A stretch of DNA of 64,000 nt from contig JAQGDQ010000582.1 in the NCBI GenBank assembly GCA_030141605.1, positions 62,001 to 126,000 of the forward strand. The letters are read 5' to 3'. This DNA is from Tubiluchus corallicola. Lineage: Eukaryota > Priapulida > Priapulimorpha > Priapulimorphida > Tubiluchidae. The position numbers and the translations under genes are program-made. Below the pieces are notes generated by a model. That model worked only from the letters and a program-made list of their open reading frames with translations, made no database searches and was not told the origin of the DNA. Shown here in pieces: positions 13,821 to 63,200 of the stretch. Positions within the stretch are counted from its first letter, which is position 1. Each line of letters begins with the position of its first letter.

Positions 13821-52854
<39,034 letters not shown>

Positions 52855-55484: not shown

Positions 55485-57532
55485 CTCTTTGTACATCCAA
55501 TGTTCCAGTAAAGAGAAGCAGTTTGGGTCAGTACAGCAGCCATAACCACCTACCACCCAAAGCAGTTCCTCCCACATTTACTCATCGAATTTCTTGATCA
55601 TGCTCTGACGTCGCTTAATTTGCTGCAAATATTTCTGGTCAAAAGCCAAATTTCTCTGCAATTGACATGTAGGTTAGACAAAATGTTTACTGTGTTAGGC
55701 TATCAACTTCATGGGACTTTTTCGTGTTTGGAAACAACAGAGATTGTCAACACACCGCAAACAATTTTTTACTGCAGTTTGTTTACCTAACATTGTCAAT
55801 GGAAATACATATATGTTCATGACACTATTACCAAAAAAATTAACAATGTTAATAATTCGATAGATACGCAATGCCTCCAATAAAAAGAGATGCAGCCATA
55901 TGGCTATAATTAAGAGTACTTTTTAAATTATTTGTCATTTACATTGAGAATAATTTAAAATTTATTCTGTTACAGTTGTAATAGAAGTTTAATTAACAAA
56001 ATTAAATTTGAAACTCTTAAAATCACAGCAATTGTTCGTGTGGGTTCCCAAAATTCTATAAAATTTGTTTATGATGTATGTTGCATAGATTTGTTGCAAA
56101 TTATGGGGCAATTGCTTTGATTAACAAAAACATTTAGATACCTTTTTTCTAGTAAATTTTGTAGTTTCTGTTAACATTACTAATTAAATACTTAACAGGT
56201 CAAACTACTTAAAAAGCTTGAAATTTCGTAATATTGATATTTAATTTGGAATCATTTACTTTTAGACAACTAAGTAAGTGGCAGGTGATTTATATAAAGA
56301 GAAAATGAAAATTAAATATTTTCTCATCTTAAGTATTTATGTAGTTTAGCAACGCAAACAGGTCTGTGTCTATAGTAGTCATACATTTGCCTGCTTTGGT
56401 AGTACACCACAAACTGTTGCCGCGAATGCACGCTGCTGTAACATACCACAAACGGTTAGTGCGCGAGTTAGTACACCACAAACGATTGCTGCTCAAACGC
56501 ACGCTTTGGTAGCACGCAACAAGCTGTTTACTACAGAAACAGTGGGGTATAAATAGCAGCTGGAATGTAGCAGGAATCGTGTAGAAAGAAAGGAGAGAAG
56601 GTTAGCACTCCCCTTGATAAGGACGGAACAGGGCATTTGCCCTCTAACACACATACGGTTAAGGCCTGCTGCTTACTTTGCAGCACTTGACCATATTTTT
56701 CAGTAAAAGCATTTTCGAAATTTAGTTATAAATGCGTTGTCATTTATTAGGTGTGTAGCACACTGAAGATCAGGAGTTCAAACCGTGATTAGTGATTTTT
56801 TTCCTGTTAGCACAATTTTTGTCGTGAATAGTTTTTTCTTTTAAAGGTTCTTAAGCAATTCTTGTAAAAATATATGTGCAAGAAAATAAAAAACAATTTT
56901 GAAAAATAAAAAACCGTTAATTTAACGGTACAGGATGTTCCAAAAACGTCTTCCGAAGGCCGCTGTACAGAAAGATATTGAGTGTTAAAGAGCCAAAAAA
57001 TTGAAATCAGGATCTATATAATTTAGGCTTACTAAACTCAATGACTTCTAATTTTTTTACAAACGTTTGTAAAATTATGGACAAATCGCTTGAAAATCAT
57101 AAGACCTTTTCACACTAATTGGTAAGTCATGTCACAATTTAATGAAAGAGTGTTCATGGAAGCTAGAACCATTATTAAAGAGGCCATGAAAAGGAAATAA
57201 ATAAAACGCAAAAAATTTGTTTCCACGTGGGTTCTGTATAACCTAGATGCAAAAAATCTGAAATCATAGTCATTTTAATCATTTTCAAAATCTTGTAGTC
57301 TAAAATTCTTTTACAAACTTTCAAATATCGACATTTAAATAGAACGAATTATTTAATATTTAATACTTTTTATTTGGAAATAAAGACACCTAACAATTAT
57401 AAAGAGCTACAATTTATTTAATACAGAATTATTTAACATGTCTCGTATTTTTTCACACGACGAATATTATTAGTACAGTATATATTAAATTTCAGCACAA
57501 AAATGTTTGTTAACGACACAAATTTCTTTAAA
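55485..57532. other. Intergenic stretch without identified gene
   Basis: No supported coding sequence. It contains an imperfect roughly 40-bp repeat around ACCACAAAC (56406, 56447, 56482) and GGCCTGCTGCTTACTTTGCA at about 56662, also present near 53599. Confidence 0.4.
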
Positions 57533-58411: not shown

Positions 58412-59488
58412 TCACTCATTTATTATCTCTGCATCCCAGTTCAGTTTTTTAGGCTTTTCTGGAAACACTGTGTAAGCATCATTCCACGTATCAAGCAGTT
58501 TACCTCCACACTTGGCACTTTTTTTACTTGATTTACCTGTATGCATTCCCGGTTCACAAAAGTTAGTAATTAATGTTTCGTTTTTACCGCTAATGTTATT
58601 ATAAAGTGTATACATGTGATTTTCGTTAAAGTAATAACCTGTGAATGTATCACTGGCAATTGTCAGTGACCGCCTTCCAAATAATTTAATATACTTGTTG
58701 AGGATCAGATACTTTTCGCCTCGAATGTACGGGCGAAATGAGGAGTCCTCCAATTTCTCAAATGCCCATTGGAGAAATTTCGTCCACACGTGTGGCATGG
58801 GAGCCAAGCCAAATACTCCTACAAGTGGATTTAGGTAAACTGTGTCATTACATTTTGGACACAACGGCATTTTGCGTTGAAGACGACCTCTGTCCGTTCT
58901 TCCAACCAAGGATCCAGTCGTGAGTGTTACAGCACCTACTTCCGGATTATCCTTGTAAAAGAGAAGGGCGGCTTTTATCCATCTGTAATAGAACCTAGAT
59001 GGCGCTGTGTCATCTTCGAACACAATGCCATAGTGTCCTGGTTTTTCTGAAGGTATCCAACAAGTAAACCATTGCATATGAACCCCTTTATTGCGGTCAT
59101 TGACTACGACTTCCTTTTTACCATAGGGCCACTCGAATGAGTTAGCAATATCAACAGTTTCCTTGGATATTTCTTTTTTCCTATCAATACAAATCTTTAA
59201 CTGCACAATATCACCGTCATATTCTGCAGCGGCCAACGCGTTTAGCAGTCTTTCCAATGACCAAGGTCTATTCATCGTCAATACGGCGATCTCCAGATGG
59301 AATGGCTCATCTTTTGTGACGGCACCTGGTGTGGCGAGGATTGAACTTGACCGTTTTGCGTCATCATCAAACGTTTGCCGTTTGTTCTCAGATCGATTTA
59401 ACGTTACGTAACTAATGATGACGAACAACAGCACGACGAAGACGTAAACGCGGCGAAAAATGCCTTTTCTATGTTCACAAATTATCAT
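58412..59488 (-). CDS. Single-exon type II membrane protein with glycosyltransferase-A-like domain, 358 aa
   Basis: Predicted Golgi or ER glycosyltransferase. Start ATG at 59488 is chosen because the longer frame begins with GTG. A short basic cytosolic tail (HRKGIFRR) precedes one membrane anchor (VYVFVVLLFVIISYVTL, about residues 15-31), then a Ser/Thr/Asp stem and a lumenal domain. That domain starts with LEIAVLTMNRPWSLERLLNA, the beta-strand/helix typical of GT2-like nucleotide-sugar folds. VFEDDTAPS is a plausible DxD-type metal site. Cys-containing CPKCND and one NxS/T site in the tail (NET of KNETL) fit a secreted domain. The acceptor and sugar are unknown. No introns interrupt it; retroposition is possible but no poly(A) tract is evident. 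A TATA-like GTATAAGT lies about 75 nt upstream (59560-59567). Confidence 0.8.
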   Translation of the reverse strand: MIICEHRKGIFRRVYVFVVLLFVIISYVTLNRSENKRQTFDDDAKRSSSILATPGAVTKDEPFHLEIAVLTMNRPWSLERLLNALAAAEYDGDIVQLKICIDRKKEISKETVDIANSFEWPYGKKEVVVNDRNKGVHMQWFTCWIPSEKPGHYGIVFEDDTAPSRFYYRWIKAALLFYKDNPEVGAVTLTTGSLVGRTDRGRLQRKMPLCPKCNDTVYLNPLVGVFGLAPMPHVWTKFLQWAFEKLEDSSFRPYIRGEKYLILNKYIKLFGRRSLTIASDTFTGYYFNENHMYTLYNNISGKNETLITNFCEPGMHTGKSSKKSAKCGGKLLDTWNDAYTVFPEKPKKLNWDAEIINE

Positions 59489-59644
59489 GGCGCTTTTTAA
59501 CACGATCAGCTACTCAGAACAGTTAAAATAAAACAGAAGACTGCAGCACTTAACACAGTACTTATACTCAGGTCATTGTTATACGGACTGTGACCTTAAT
59601 ACAAGCCCTGCTACGCACGACGACTATAAATTACTTAGCTTACA

Positions 59645-59844
59645 TACCTATTTGTTTGGAGTTGTTGTATTTTATTTTTGAAATCATGAGTTATTCAGCA
59701 GATAAAATGATCATAAAAAATGAAGTAACACTGAATCTGATAATCTTATCAGATTCAGTGTTACTTCATTTTTTATGATCATTTTATCTGCTGAATAATT
59801 CATGATTTCAAAAATAAAATACAACAACTCCAAACAAATAGGTA
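59645..59844. repeat. Near-perfect palindrome 1 (99-bp arms, 2-nt loop)
   Basis: Left arm 59645-59743 and right arm 59746-59844 are exact inverses except for one G/A difference (CATGAGTTATT versus CATGAATTATT). The centre is GATAA-TC-TTATC. Confidence 0.97.
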
Positions 59845-60057
59845 AAATTTATACGTGAACAATTTATATGCATAGGAGCTAGTAGAAACGCCAAACTTAG
59901 CATGTAAATATGCCAAACAAGATAGATGACTCAATTTTAATCAAAAGGTACCTTTTGATTAAAATTGAGTCATCTATCTTGTTTGGCATATTTACATGCT
60001 AAGTTTGGCGTTTCTACTAGCTCCTATGCATATAAATTGTTCACGTATAAATTTTAC
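59842..60057. repeat. Perfect palindrome 2 (108-bp arms, no loop)
   Basis: Arms 59842-59949 and 59950-60057 are identical in inverse orientation with no mismatch. The centre is AAAAGGTACCTTTT. It overlaps palindrome 1 by the three bases GTA. Confidence 0.97.
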
Positions 60058-60199
60058 GCACTCTTTCTTAAGGGCGGCTCTAAACACGGATACTTGGTAT
60101 TTATTACTTTATTTTATATAATATTTACTATATTCATTATTTAATACTTTTTGTATTAACTTTATTAAATGACTATGACAACAGCATTTATTCAAATCA

Positions 60200-61260
60200 T
60201 TATTGTAAATAAAATGGCCAAATGTTATAAGTGACAAAGATTGGTACGACAAAGTCAAGGGAGAAAAATGGAGCAGGACGATAAAACGTAGAAGGTTTAA
60301 CTAGGTTCATCGCTCTGAAGTCTAGCGCCCCACGAATAACATTAAGTGTCCTGTTTGCGCGAGTGTCAGTTTCTGGTGAGCGGTCACTCCAACGAAGATT
60401 GGTGATGATGGTAGTGCCCAGATTTGGACGCGAAGAAACATGCTCTAGGATTTTGTCGCCCATGCTGTGAGGAAAGTAATTTGGATTTGGAAAATAATTT
60501 GGAAAGTAATCGTGAGCGAATGGTCGGATATTTGATGATATGTTGTCATCGATGTCATTTATATAGGAGAGGAATAAAGCCGGTCCAACAACTGAGCATT
60601 GTGGGTCTCCTGATGAAACATTTATGGGTTTGGAATGAATGCCATTGATGGAGACCTTCTGCGACCGCTCAGAGGGAAAAGATTTGACCCATTGTAGCAT
60701 ATGACCTCTGATACCATAGAATACGAGCTTAGCTATAAGAAGCTGATGTGGGACCCGGTCGAAAGCTTTGCCGAAATCAAGCAGTACACTATATCAACCT
60801 GACAGACTTTATTGCTTTATTTGTCATTTGAAGCTAATGTCCAGTCGTGTACGGATTCTATCAGCTGAATTGAACATGAAAAACACGAACGAAAACCGTG
60901 TTGGATGCCCTTAATACTGCTATAATTGTCAAGATGTGTGTTGACATGTAAGAGGCAGATATGCTCCATTATTTTACAGGCTATGCATGTCTTGAGATAG
61001 GATCTGTAGTTTAAAGCTGAAGAAGTAGATCCTTTTTGTGTTTAGCAGTAGTTTAGTAGTTTAGTGTTTAGTAGTAACTGTCAGCCTTGGCTTTGTTGGA
61101 GACATAGATGTTGCTTTGGTCGATGAGACTTGGGATACCCGTGTGTTCAGTATTCGTGATCTTTACAAAGCTCAAAAAACATTTTGGATTTTCTGCTAGT
61201 GATCCACCAATGACGTCATTAATGTATTCATTATAAATAAACTCAATCAATTAAACTGGA
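60200..61260 (-). mobile_element. Degenerate antisense LINE fragment (reverse transcriptase)
   Basis: Reading down from 61250: a pre-RT segment (NPKCFLSFVKITNTEHTGIP), then CKIMEHI and IQHGFRSCFS (60850-60965), LDFGKAFDRVPHQLLIAKL (about 60720-60785), and SSGDPQCSVVGPALFLSYIN around 60560-60640. Frames shift several times and the YxDD motif reads AHDYF, so the copy is inactive. Confidence 0.85.
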
Positions 61261-61551
61261 TCAGTTAGCAAGCGGTGGCTGCTAAACTAATTTGCATATT
61301 TTGCCCACCGTTGAAAAAACAAAAAAATGAATGTAACAGGAACGAATAACAATGATGAGATTGACAACTGACTGACCAGTGACCGCACATATATAAAGGA
61401 AGGCAACTAACAAACAAACAAAAAACAGGCAAAAAATCAGCAGGTGTACGATCAAGCAAATCGTAACAACAGTTTATGATTATTTTGTATATTCATTAAT
61501 GACAATGTTGACAAATGACAAAAATTACAACAACAAAAACACAATGACGGT

Positions 61552-61612
61552 GGTAATTATGATGATAAAAATGATGATAGCAATGATGATAATGATGATG
61601 GTGATGGAGATA
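61552..61612. repeat. GAT-rich microsatellite
   Basis: GATGAT and AATGAT triplets. Confidence 0.8.
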
Positions 61613-61721
61613 CTTTAGGGATTAAAGCCAATATTCGCACTTTTCAAGTTGATTAAAAACTTTTGATTTTAAATAAAATCTTGGTGTAATCAGGCAGGCA
61701 CCCATCATATTTGATGACTAG

Positions 61722-61860
61722 CTTATCATCATCATCATCATCATCATCATCGTCATCGTTGTTATCATCATCAACATTGTCGTCGTCGTCGTCATCATCA
61801 TCGTCATCGTTATCGTTATCGTAGTAATTGTCGTCGTCATCATCATCATCATCATCATCT
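61722..61860. repeat. (ATC)n/(GTC)n microsatellite
   Basis: Long run of ATC, GTC and GTT triplets. The poly-Asp frame on the minus strand is an artefact. Confidence 0.95.
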
Positions 61861-63200
61861 GTTTTCATGCACATGAGTATGCTTCATTTTCATGAGTAAT
61901 ACATTCCTTCAAATTGTAAAAATAAAGTCATCTGATCCAATTCAATCCAATCCAATTTATATAAAGTAATACTTTTGCTTTGTTAGTGAATTGTTGCTAC
62001 GAATGCTCTGTTATGCAATGTTACTTAAACTTGTTCAAAACGAGCCATCAAAATAAAGTTTAAAAAGTCGAAATTTATATCACTTACAAGTAGTGTTATT
62101 TCATACAGAGCATGCGTTAGCAGTAACTCCTGTAAAACTTGCGAAATTAAACTCCCTCGATGACCGTTAACCGCAGCCATTTTAACAGTAAGTCGTTTGT
62201 AGCAAGTTTAGATAAGATTGCATAAGTTTGAAAAATAAACAGAGCATCCGTAGTGCACACTTTGCTAACTAATCAAAAGTATTAATATATTGCCAATAAG
62301 AACAATAACGTGTTTTTTTAGGTGAATCAGTGGCGCACAATGGGATTGTGCTGCAGTGCTGTTTTATCAGCTGGTGGGAACATTTAAATTCCTGCGAATT
62401 TTCTTTTCTAGTTACGCATGTCTTTCAAACCATTTCGCTCCATTTCATAACTCATTAGCTACTCTCACATACATCAATGTATATATTTATCATTATCTTA
62501 TTTATTAATCCTTTAAGATTTCCACGTACAGTTTGGCCTGTCAAGCTATGGTTTTAGGTTCAAACAGTATGCATCAAAACTATTGTTTATATGTTAGCTA
62601 AAAACTCTTTACTTGTATTATCTAGACTATGTTTTATTTATATTTATATTTGTATTTACTTTATCAGAAAATTATTTTCTCTATTTTAGTGATATTATTG
62701 TAAGATGCAGTGTGGAAATAAATAAACTCTTAAACTCTTGTCAATCTGACCTTCCTTGTGACTTTACATCGTTAAGATTTAATGACGGCCCGCTTTTGGT
62801 ACAACCTGTTTTCAAACTCACTATGATTCATAAACGATCCTCCAGGGCATGCGGCCCTTACTATTGAAACTTGTTGCCTTATGAACTAGGAATGTGCATT
62901 AATTTTGGTACTTTTATATCCAAGTTGAAAAGTCACTAGTTCTTAAAACCATAATGCGATTCCTAAAGACTGTTTTAAATCACCTTTGTAATTTCATAGT
63001 TTTACTTGTATAAATCGTACAATTGAAAATTTATTTGAAATGTTTGCATGATTCTTAGAGATGTTTCAGCTTCATAATGAAAGGTTTTTGATATTTCAAT
63101 TTAAATTGAAAACTCACTGGCTTAACGTTTTTATTTTTTTCTTGATGTATATTGCGCCCACTTTTTATAGTTTATAATTTTATGTAAATTTATTATCTTA
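61861..63200. other. Intergenic stretch without identified gene
   Basis: AT-rich; an AATAAAGTCA word with CCAATTCAATCCAATCC at 61920-61960 looks like a retroelement 3' tail. No convincing ORF. Confidence 0.4.

Follow-up and report, generated by a model that had tools for sequence, protein, structure and literature searches.

Two abutting palindromes and the neighbouring open reading frame

The window, i.e. the whole stretch of 64 kb of contig C1219 that was analysed (assembly total 343.5 Mb), carries two abutting palindromes that together comprise 413 bases. Palindrome 1 (59645-59844) consists of arms of 99 nt each with one mismatch, site 59690 (G) versus 59799, and a 2-nt centre (TC). The arms of palindrome 2 (59842-60057) have 108 nt each and show neither a mismatch nor a spacer. 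The three bases GTA at 59842-59844 are common to both palindromes. This geometry had been described in an earlier note and proved exact to the base. With the outer arms designated a and b and a prime denoting the reverse complement, the order in the window is a-a'-b'-b. The dinucleotide TA is present at the palindrome boundaries (59645-59646, 59843-59844 and 60055-60056). The features of the locus are as follows:

58412-59488, minus strand: open reading frame of 358 codons with the palindromes upstream of its ATG; member of a family present in at least eight genomic places, itself included
59645-59743, plus strand: segment a, outer arm of palindrome 1 and original left side; continuous with the left flank in the alignment to C1096
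59744-59745: centre of palindrome 1 (TC), a fold-back joint
59746-59844, minus strand: segment a', inner arm of palindrome 1, an inverted a; no counterpart at the C1096 site
59842-59844: GTA overlap, microhomology at the a'/b' joint, linking the outer end of a to the outer end of b
59842-59949, minus strand: segment b', inner arm of palindrome 2, an inverted b; no counterpart at the C1096 site
59945-59954: AAGGTACCTT, perfect palindrome of 10 bp at the centre of palindrome 2, where the ancestral a/b joint lies
59950-60057, plus strand: segment b, outer arm of palindrome 2 and original right side; aligns to C1096 with the right flank
60058-60061: point of a 22-bp indel, a deletion in the window or an insertion in C1096, 2-4 bp outside palindrome 2

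Structures of this kind are rare in the DNA that was scanned. With arms of at least 12 nt and a spacer of at most 10, the 64-kb window contains a single other perfect-arm palindrome, a 12-nt AT repeat, and none was detected in 37,020 bases of contig C1096 or in the 18,001 bases of contig C1927 that had been fetched. A control scan with arms of at least 20 nt, tolerance for some mismatches and a spacer of up to 30 turned up one AT dinucleotide repeat in 150,000 bases and nothing else; the 15 control stretches of ten kb were placed at round coordinates on 15 contigs met in prior searches and do not constitute a formal random sample. The double palindrome is not due to chance, because the window otherwise holds only that one 12-nt AT repeat of the same class.

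The palindromes are situated 157-569 bp upstream of the minus-strand ATG at 59488, as had been reported before. At least eight places in the genome, including the open reading frame itself, match at least 498 of 595 query bases. Related copies reside on C1096 and C1927, where the longest frames comprise 304 and 307 codons, respectively, from a GTG slightly upstream. The window frame has 363 codons from the equivalent GTG and 358 from the ATG, while those on C1096 and C1927 terminate earlier. The designation as a glycosyltransferase given in the earlier note could not be confirmed. Database comparison yielded no Pfam match at a threshold of 0.001 and one unrelated, sub-threshold match at 10, and neither NCBIfam nor the PDB sequences gave a match. 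An AlphaFold model built from six sequences (the window protein and five relatives) reached a mean pLDDT of 37.5; an N-terminal helix is predicted in this low-confidence model.

RNA folding of the palindrome region predicts two full-length hairpins (-317.6 kcal/mol), in line with the previous suggestion that a transcript, if made, would form two long hairpins. Such hairpins are expected to follow from the palindromes and are not evidence of function. Most likely, the palindromes represent a neutral scar, for which an incidental effect on the promoter is possible. Rfam models at gathering scores detected only U6atac in the window, away from the palindromes. This is a full-length U6atac minor-spliceosomal snRNA at 56579-56702 on the plus strand (112.4 bits, model positions 1-126).

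A related locus with joined outer arms

Genome searches with each of the palindromes led to two related loci. The places listed for palindrome 1 were C1219 itself, C1096 and C1927, and those for palindrome 2 were C1219 itself and C1096, in a search that passes over very common words and might therefore let an abundant repeat escape. C1096 has the same flanks as the window and is devoid of the central ~203 bp, its outer arms being united as a-GGT-b. Window positions 58542-59743 correspond to C1096 4632-3417 and window positions 59945-60318 to C1096 3418-3023, the two blocks meeting at adjacent bases in C1096. By alignment, the joint before the event reads ...CTGATAA-GGT-ACCTTTTGATT..., for which the C1096 form is GATAAGGTACTTTTTGATT; at the site of AAGGTACCTT, C1096 reads AAGGTACTTT. 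Projected onto this sequence, the centre of palindrome 1 lies right after GATAA and that of palindrome 2 between GGT and ACC, about 4 bp apart. Because the outer arms are joined in C1096, it is very probable that both centres are topologically one and the same ancestral point. The earlier note had concluded from the different arm sequences that two independent inversions were needed, a proposal that is not supported and was rejected on account of the common ancestral centre. From the sequences compared, the locus looks like the product of one recent local event at a single site and not like transposons or independently formed palindromes.

In C1927, similarity includes the left flank and extends over 57 bases in the outer part of a; beyond them the sequence diverges, and C1927 does not cover the a/b joint. 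When the C1096 segment was used as query, five matches other than itself were listed, four of them at the palindrome locus of C1219 and one being the truncated copy on C1927. At about 17570-17920, next to the position that corresponds to the palindrome site, C1927 contains a unit of ~80-84 bp repeated about four times head to tail. The alignments of the window that extend over at least 150 bases are represented here by 9 of 23 matches for C1096 and 8 of 12 for C1927, namely those beyond window position 52000 or with more than 88% identity. We call C1096 a paralogue of the window locus, because the shared block stops on the left at window position 56644 and three related copies exist. The alternative, a very diverged allele, would not change the order of events. 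The U6atac sequence spans this left end of the shared block.

The comparison with C1096 also bears on age. Substitutions (6-8%) affect 66 of 1070 aligned positions to the left of the palindromes and 19 of 260 to their right; for a-GGT-b, where the three GGT positions are identical by construction, the count is 17 of 210. The two arms within the window differ from one another at only 1 of 207 positions as against the 17 of 210 that separate the paralogues over the same segment, and the event is therefore young, which supports the recent origin considered in the earlier note. By our own arithmetic, and assuming no gene conversion, its age is roughly 6-8% of that of the paralogues. For 16 of the 17 substitutions relative to C1096 both window arms have the identical state, and the seventeenth is the sole site at which the arms differ. 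At this site, 59690, the outer arm has G, the inner arm and C1927 have A and C1096 has C. The difference fits a later substitution, and the state of the site argues weakly against a fresh assembly chimera. Most likely, the insertion arose on the window lineage and not before the paralogues duplicated, since older palindromes would show arm divergence at the level of the paralogues unless gene conversion had occurred.

Long perfect palindromes mostly lose the trace of their formation. Here, the related intact locus supplies the likely pre-event sequence and thus exposes all three joints.

Three joints and the routes that could have formed them

Joint 1, the 2-nt centre of palindrome 1, reads GATAA-T-CTTATC. 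In C1096, GATAA is followed by a G, which recurs in the inverted copy, and the T is extra; given this G in C1096, the T looks untemplated or mutated. At joint 2, between a' and b', the outer ends of a and b are united with GTA in common, as TAC both starts segment a and ends segment b. An overlap of at least 3 bp occurs at 6.9% of random joints in this DNA. Joint 3, at the centre of palindrome 2, has no spacer and lies inside the 10-bp palindrome AAGGTACCTT. Positions within 5 bp of the centre of so long a palindrome make up 1.7% of the window, or 1.3% when palindromes composed of A and T only are left aside. C1096 differs by one base (ACT) within AAGGTACCTT, and it is the window's own two arms that point to the existence of the 10-bp palindrome before the event.

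Just beyond the right edge, 22 bp of C1096 are missing from the window, with AC flanking both sides. This indel is possibly part of the same event or unrelated; five indels of at least 6 bp are present in the ~1.5-kb alignment of the window with C1096. With regard to its polarity, C1927 diverges within a, and a third copy of b is absent among the matches listed.

Each of the inverted copies, a' and b', starts from the ancestral a/b point and reproduces the DNA adjacent to it. We favour, at roughly even chances, one break whose two ends were each self-closed, opened further inward and joined by microhomology, which would convert L-a-GGT-b-R, the arrangement still found in C1096, into L-a-a'-b'-b-R. 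A double-strand break at or beside AAGGTACCTT would be followed by self-closure of each end almost without a spacer, either as a hairpin cap or by sister-end fusion. Nicking of the 5'-ending strand at a distance of 99 and 108 nt from the respective tip would then open the closed ends and leave two 3' overhangs of ~100 nt that end in ...GTA-3' and ...TAC-3'. Annealing of these complementary termini and fill-in, that is microhomology end joining, would provide each broken end with an inverted copy of ~100 nt and result in two abutting palindromes. A simulation of these steps returned the observed 413 bases apart from the one later substitution; because the positions of the joints were fitted, as was one additional T, this constitutes consistency and not prediction. 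Spacers of 0 and 2 nt suit closed or fused ends better than a looped, primed hairpin, and near-equal arms (99 and 108) are expected when both ends are processed alike. A looped inverted repeat that could have served as primer is absent from both centres, where the spacers measure 2 and 0 nt and the 0-nt centre lies in the 10-bp palindrome.

A more specific version of the break is germline repair via two covalently hairpin-capped ends, nicks in the 5' strands ~100 nt from the tip and a terminal microhomology of 3 bp. We put it forward tentatively and consider it rather doubtful. If true, it would amount to "long P-nucleotide" repair at both ends, with a double-palindrome signature that can be counted genome-wide.

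One point against the break is that a duplication followed by an inversion yields nearly identical sequence. In that scheme, a 207-bp tandem duplication with 3-bp TAC microhomology would have produced a-b-a-b, and the middle b-a would subsequently have been inverted between the copies of AAGGTACCTT. Direct copies of a palindromic site are inverted repeats at the same time, and template switching or recombination between them would flip the spacer to a-a'-b'-b; inversion of a spacer by template switching between short inverted repeats has been described (PMC8604942). This order of events accounts for the shared ancestral point as well as for its palindromic nature. The 10-bp palindrome is a necessity for it and is merely suggestive for the break. 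Tandem duplication does occur in this neighbourhood, as illustrated by the head-to-tail copies beside the site in C1927. When simulated, it agreed with the observed sequence except for the later substitution and the centre of palindrome 1 (GGTACC to TC), where an additional loss of 4 bp and a base change are required. It would moreover have to place the palindrome in the middle of the unit by chance (99 of 207), for which our own arithmetic gives about 4%, and to drive the inversion by just 10 bp of homology, and no tandem intermediate appeared among the best matches listed in the assembly searches. We regard it as quite possible, if on the less probable side. Two further points weigh on the break: one paralogue alone covers the joint, so that the pre-event state is given by a single sequence, and C1096 could in principle be a deletion derivative. 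In the latter case the arms should have diverged to near the level of the paralogues, barring gene conversion.

An artefact of assembly or library construction, a fold-back chimera at C1219, is disfavoured and appears improbable. Palindromes are difficult to sequence, and the assembly may contain redundant pieces, for example window 30000-31337 and its counterpart on C469. However, the flanking sequence runs on at both sides, an artefact would have to make three joints and still end up where it began, and the arms differ by the substitution at 59690, whose inner state is that of C1927. The window and the loci checked do not contain a single N, and other long palindromes are absent from the 150 kb of controls, which makes the assembly seem not prone to such errors. 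A leading/lagging fork template switch, either ODIRA or another one with later trimming, is very improbable. It would yield near-perfect palindromic joints via a self-complementary closed intermediate, much as in the scheme favoured here. Under ODIRA as described in PMC10766186 (see also PMC10766183), however, one would expect the order X-X'-X, an inverted triplication whose joints fall at short inverted repeats separated by 40-80 nt. The window instead contains each half twice, in the order a-a'-b'-b; its spacers measure 0 and 2 nt, and the model in this description does not yield the a'/b' joint. The triplication was rejected for its wrong order and spacers. Perfect palindromic transposable elements are known, and TA bounds both palindromes, as it would if two palindromic MITEs or foldback elements had inserted side by side at a common TA target. 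This reading was likewise rejected and is the least credible of all: C1096 has no palindromes although a and b are both present at the corresponding site, the arm sequences belong to the normal flanking DNA in C1096 and C1927, and the searches, which passed over very common words, listed no dispersed copies but only C1219, C1096 and C1927 with related flanks. The excision scar of a hairpin-forming transposon was also discarded; by eye, no target-site duplication was seen around the ancestral point, and the few papers listed in a literature search on such scars offered no close parallel.

With regard to redundancy, the identity between window 30000-31337 and C469:6520-7856 is 100% (rounded) over ~1338 bases and points to a very recent duplication or to redundant assembly.

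Relation to known rearrangements

The break with closure of both ends works like a fold-back inverted duplication, yet we do not class it as a standard member of that group, because a priming inverted repeat with a loop is lacking at the centres. Inverted insertions at yeast break ends range from 2 to ~150 bp and are mostly shorter than 14 bp (PMC11724301). They resemble the window in that inverted, break-adjacent DNA is captured by microhomology (0-5 bp in yeast, 3 bp here). As presented there, the yeast insertions involve one end, and their priming takes place at inverted microhomologies that enclose a 41-nt loop, whereas in the window both ends were copied over ~100 nt each with centres of 0 and 2 nt. 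Palindromic joints at broken ends have also been described for collapsed forks, where sister ends fuse with microhomology (PMC13275508), and for hairpin-capped inverted duplications (PMC10622511). The molecules in these accounts are fused end to end or dicentric; here, the palindromes are local and re-joined in place.

Breakage-replication/fusion creates insertions with a median of 184 bp that map beside broken ends, with joints that often exhibit more than 2 bp of microhomology or untemplated bases (PMC12807874). Short, end-adjacent pieces chained in this manner are similar to what is seen at the locus, although that account concerns experimental human clones with many broken ends and ours one site in a genome assembly. 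The four-point template-switch model (PMC7954356) is comparable insofar as inverted local copies create hairpins between related sequences. In its published outline, a single 2->3 excursion copies one contiguous template. Segment a'b', in contrast, corresponds to the inverted ancestral segment in circularly permuted form, for which the model would need one more jump or a template duplicated in tandem. Local n-jumps and fold-back inversions have been reported in cancer (PMC7025897). Within the available text of the literature searched, which covers few subscription journals, we did not find an a-a'-b'-b arrangement derived from both ends of one break and re-joined in place.

The signature a-a'-b'-b can be searched for in long-read genomes and would reveal how frequently both ends of a break are copied inward. 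The locus also corrects a natural misreading, as neighbouring palindromes may be neither independent events nor transposons.

Some additional observations concern the DNA to the right of the palindromes. An open frame on the minus strand at 60200-60700 is Pfam-negative at 0.001; by eye, we take it to resemble a fragment of a non-LTR reverse transcriptase. For the stretch 60058-60700, 40 of 57 candidates were scored, and there are at least 56 matches in the genome when the stretch itself is counted. Further on, at 61541-61862, diverged GAT/ATC tracts in opposite orientation give rise to weak inverted repeats.
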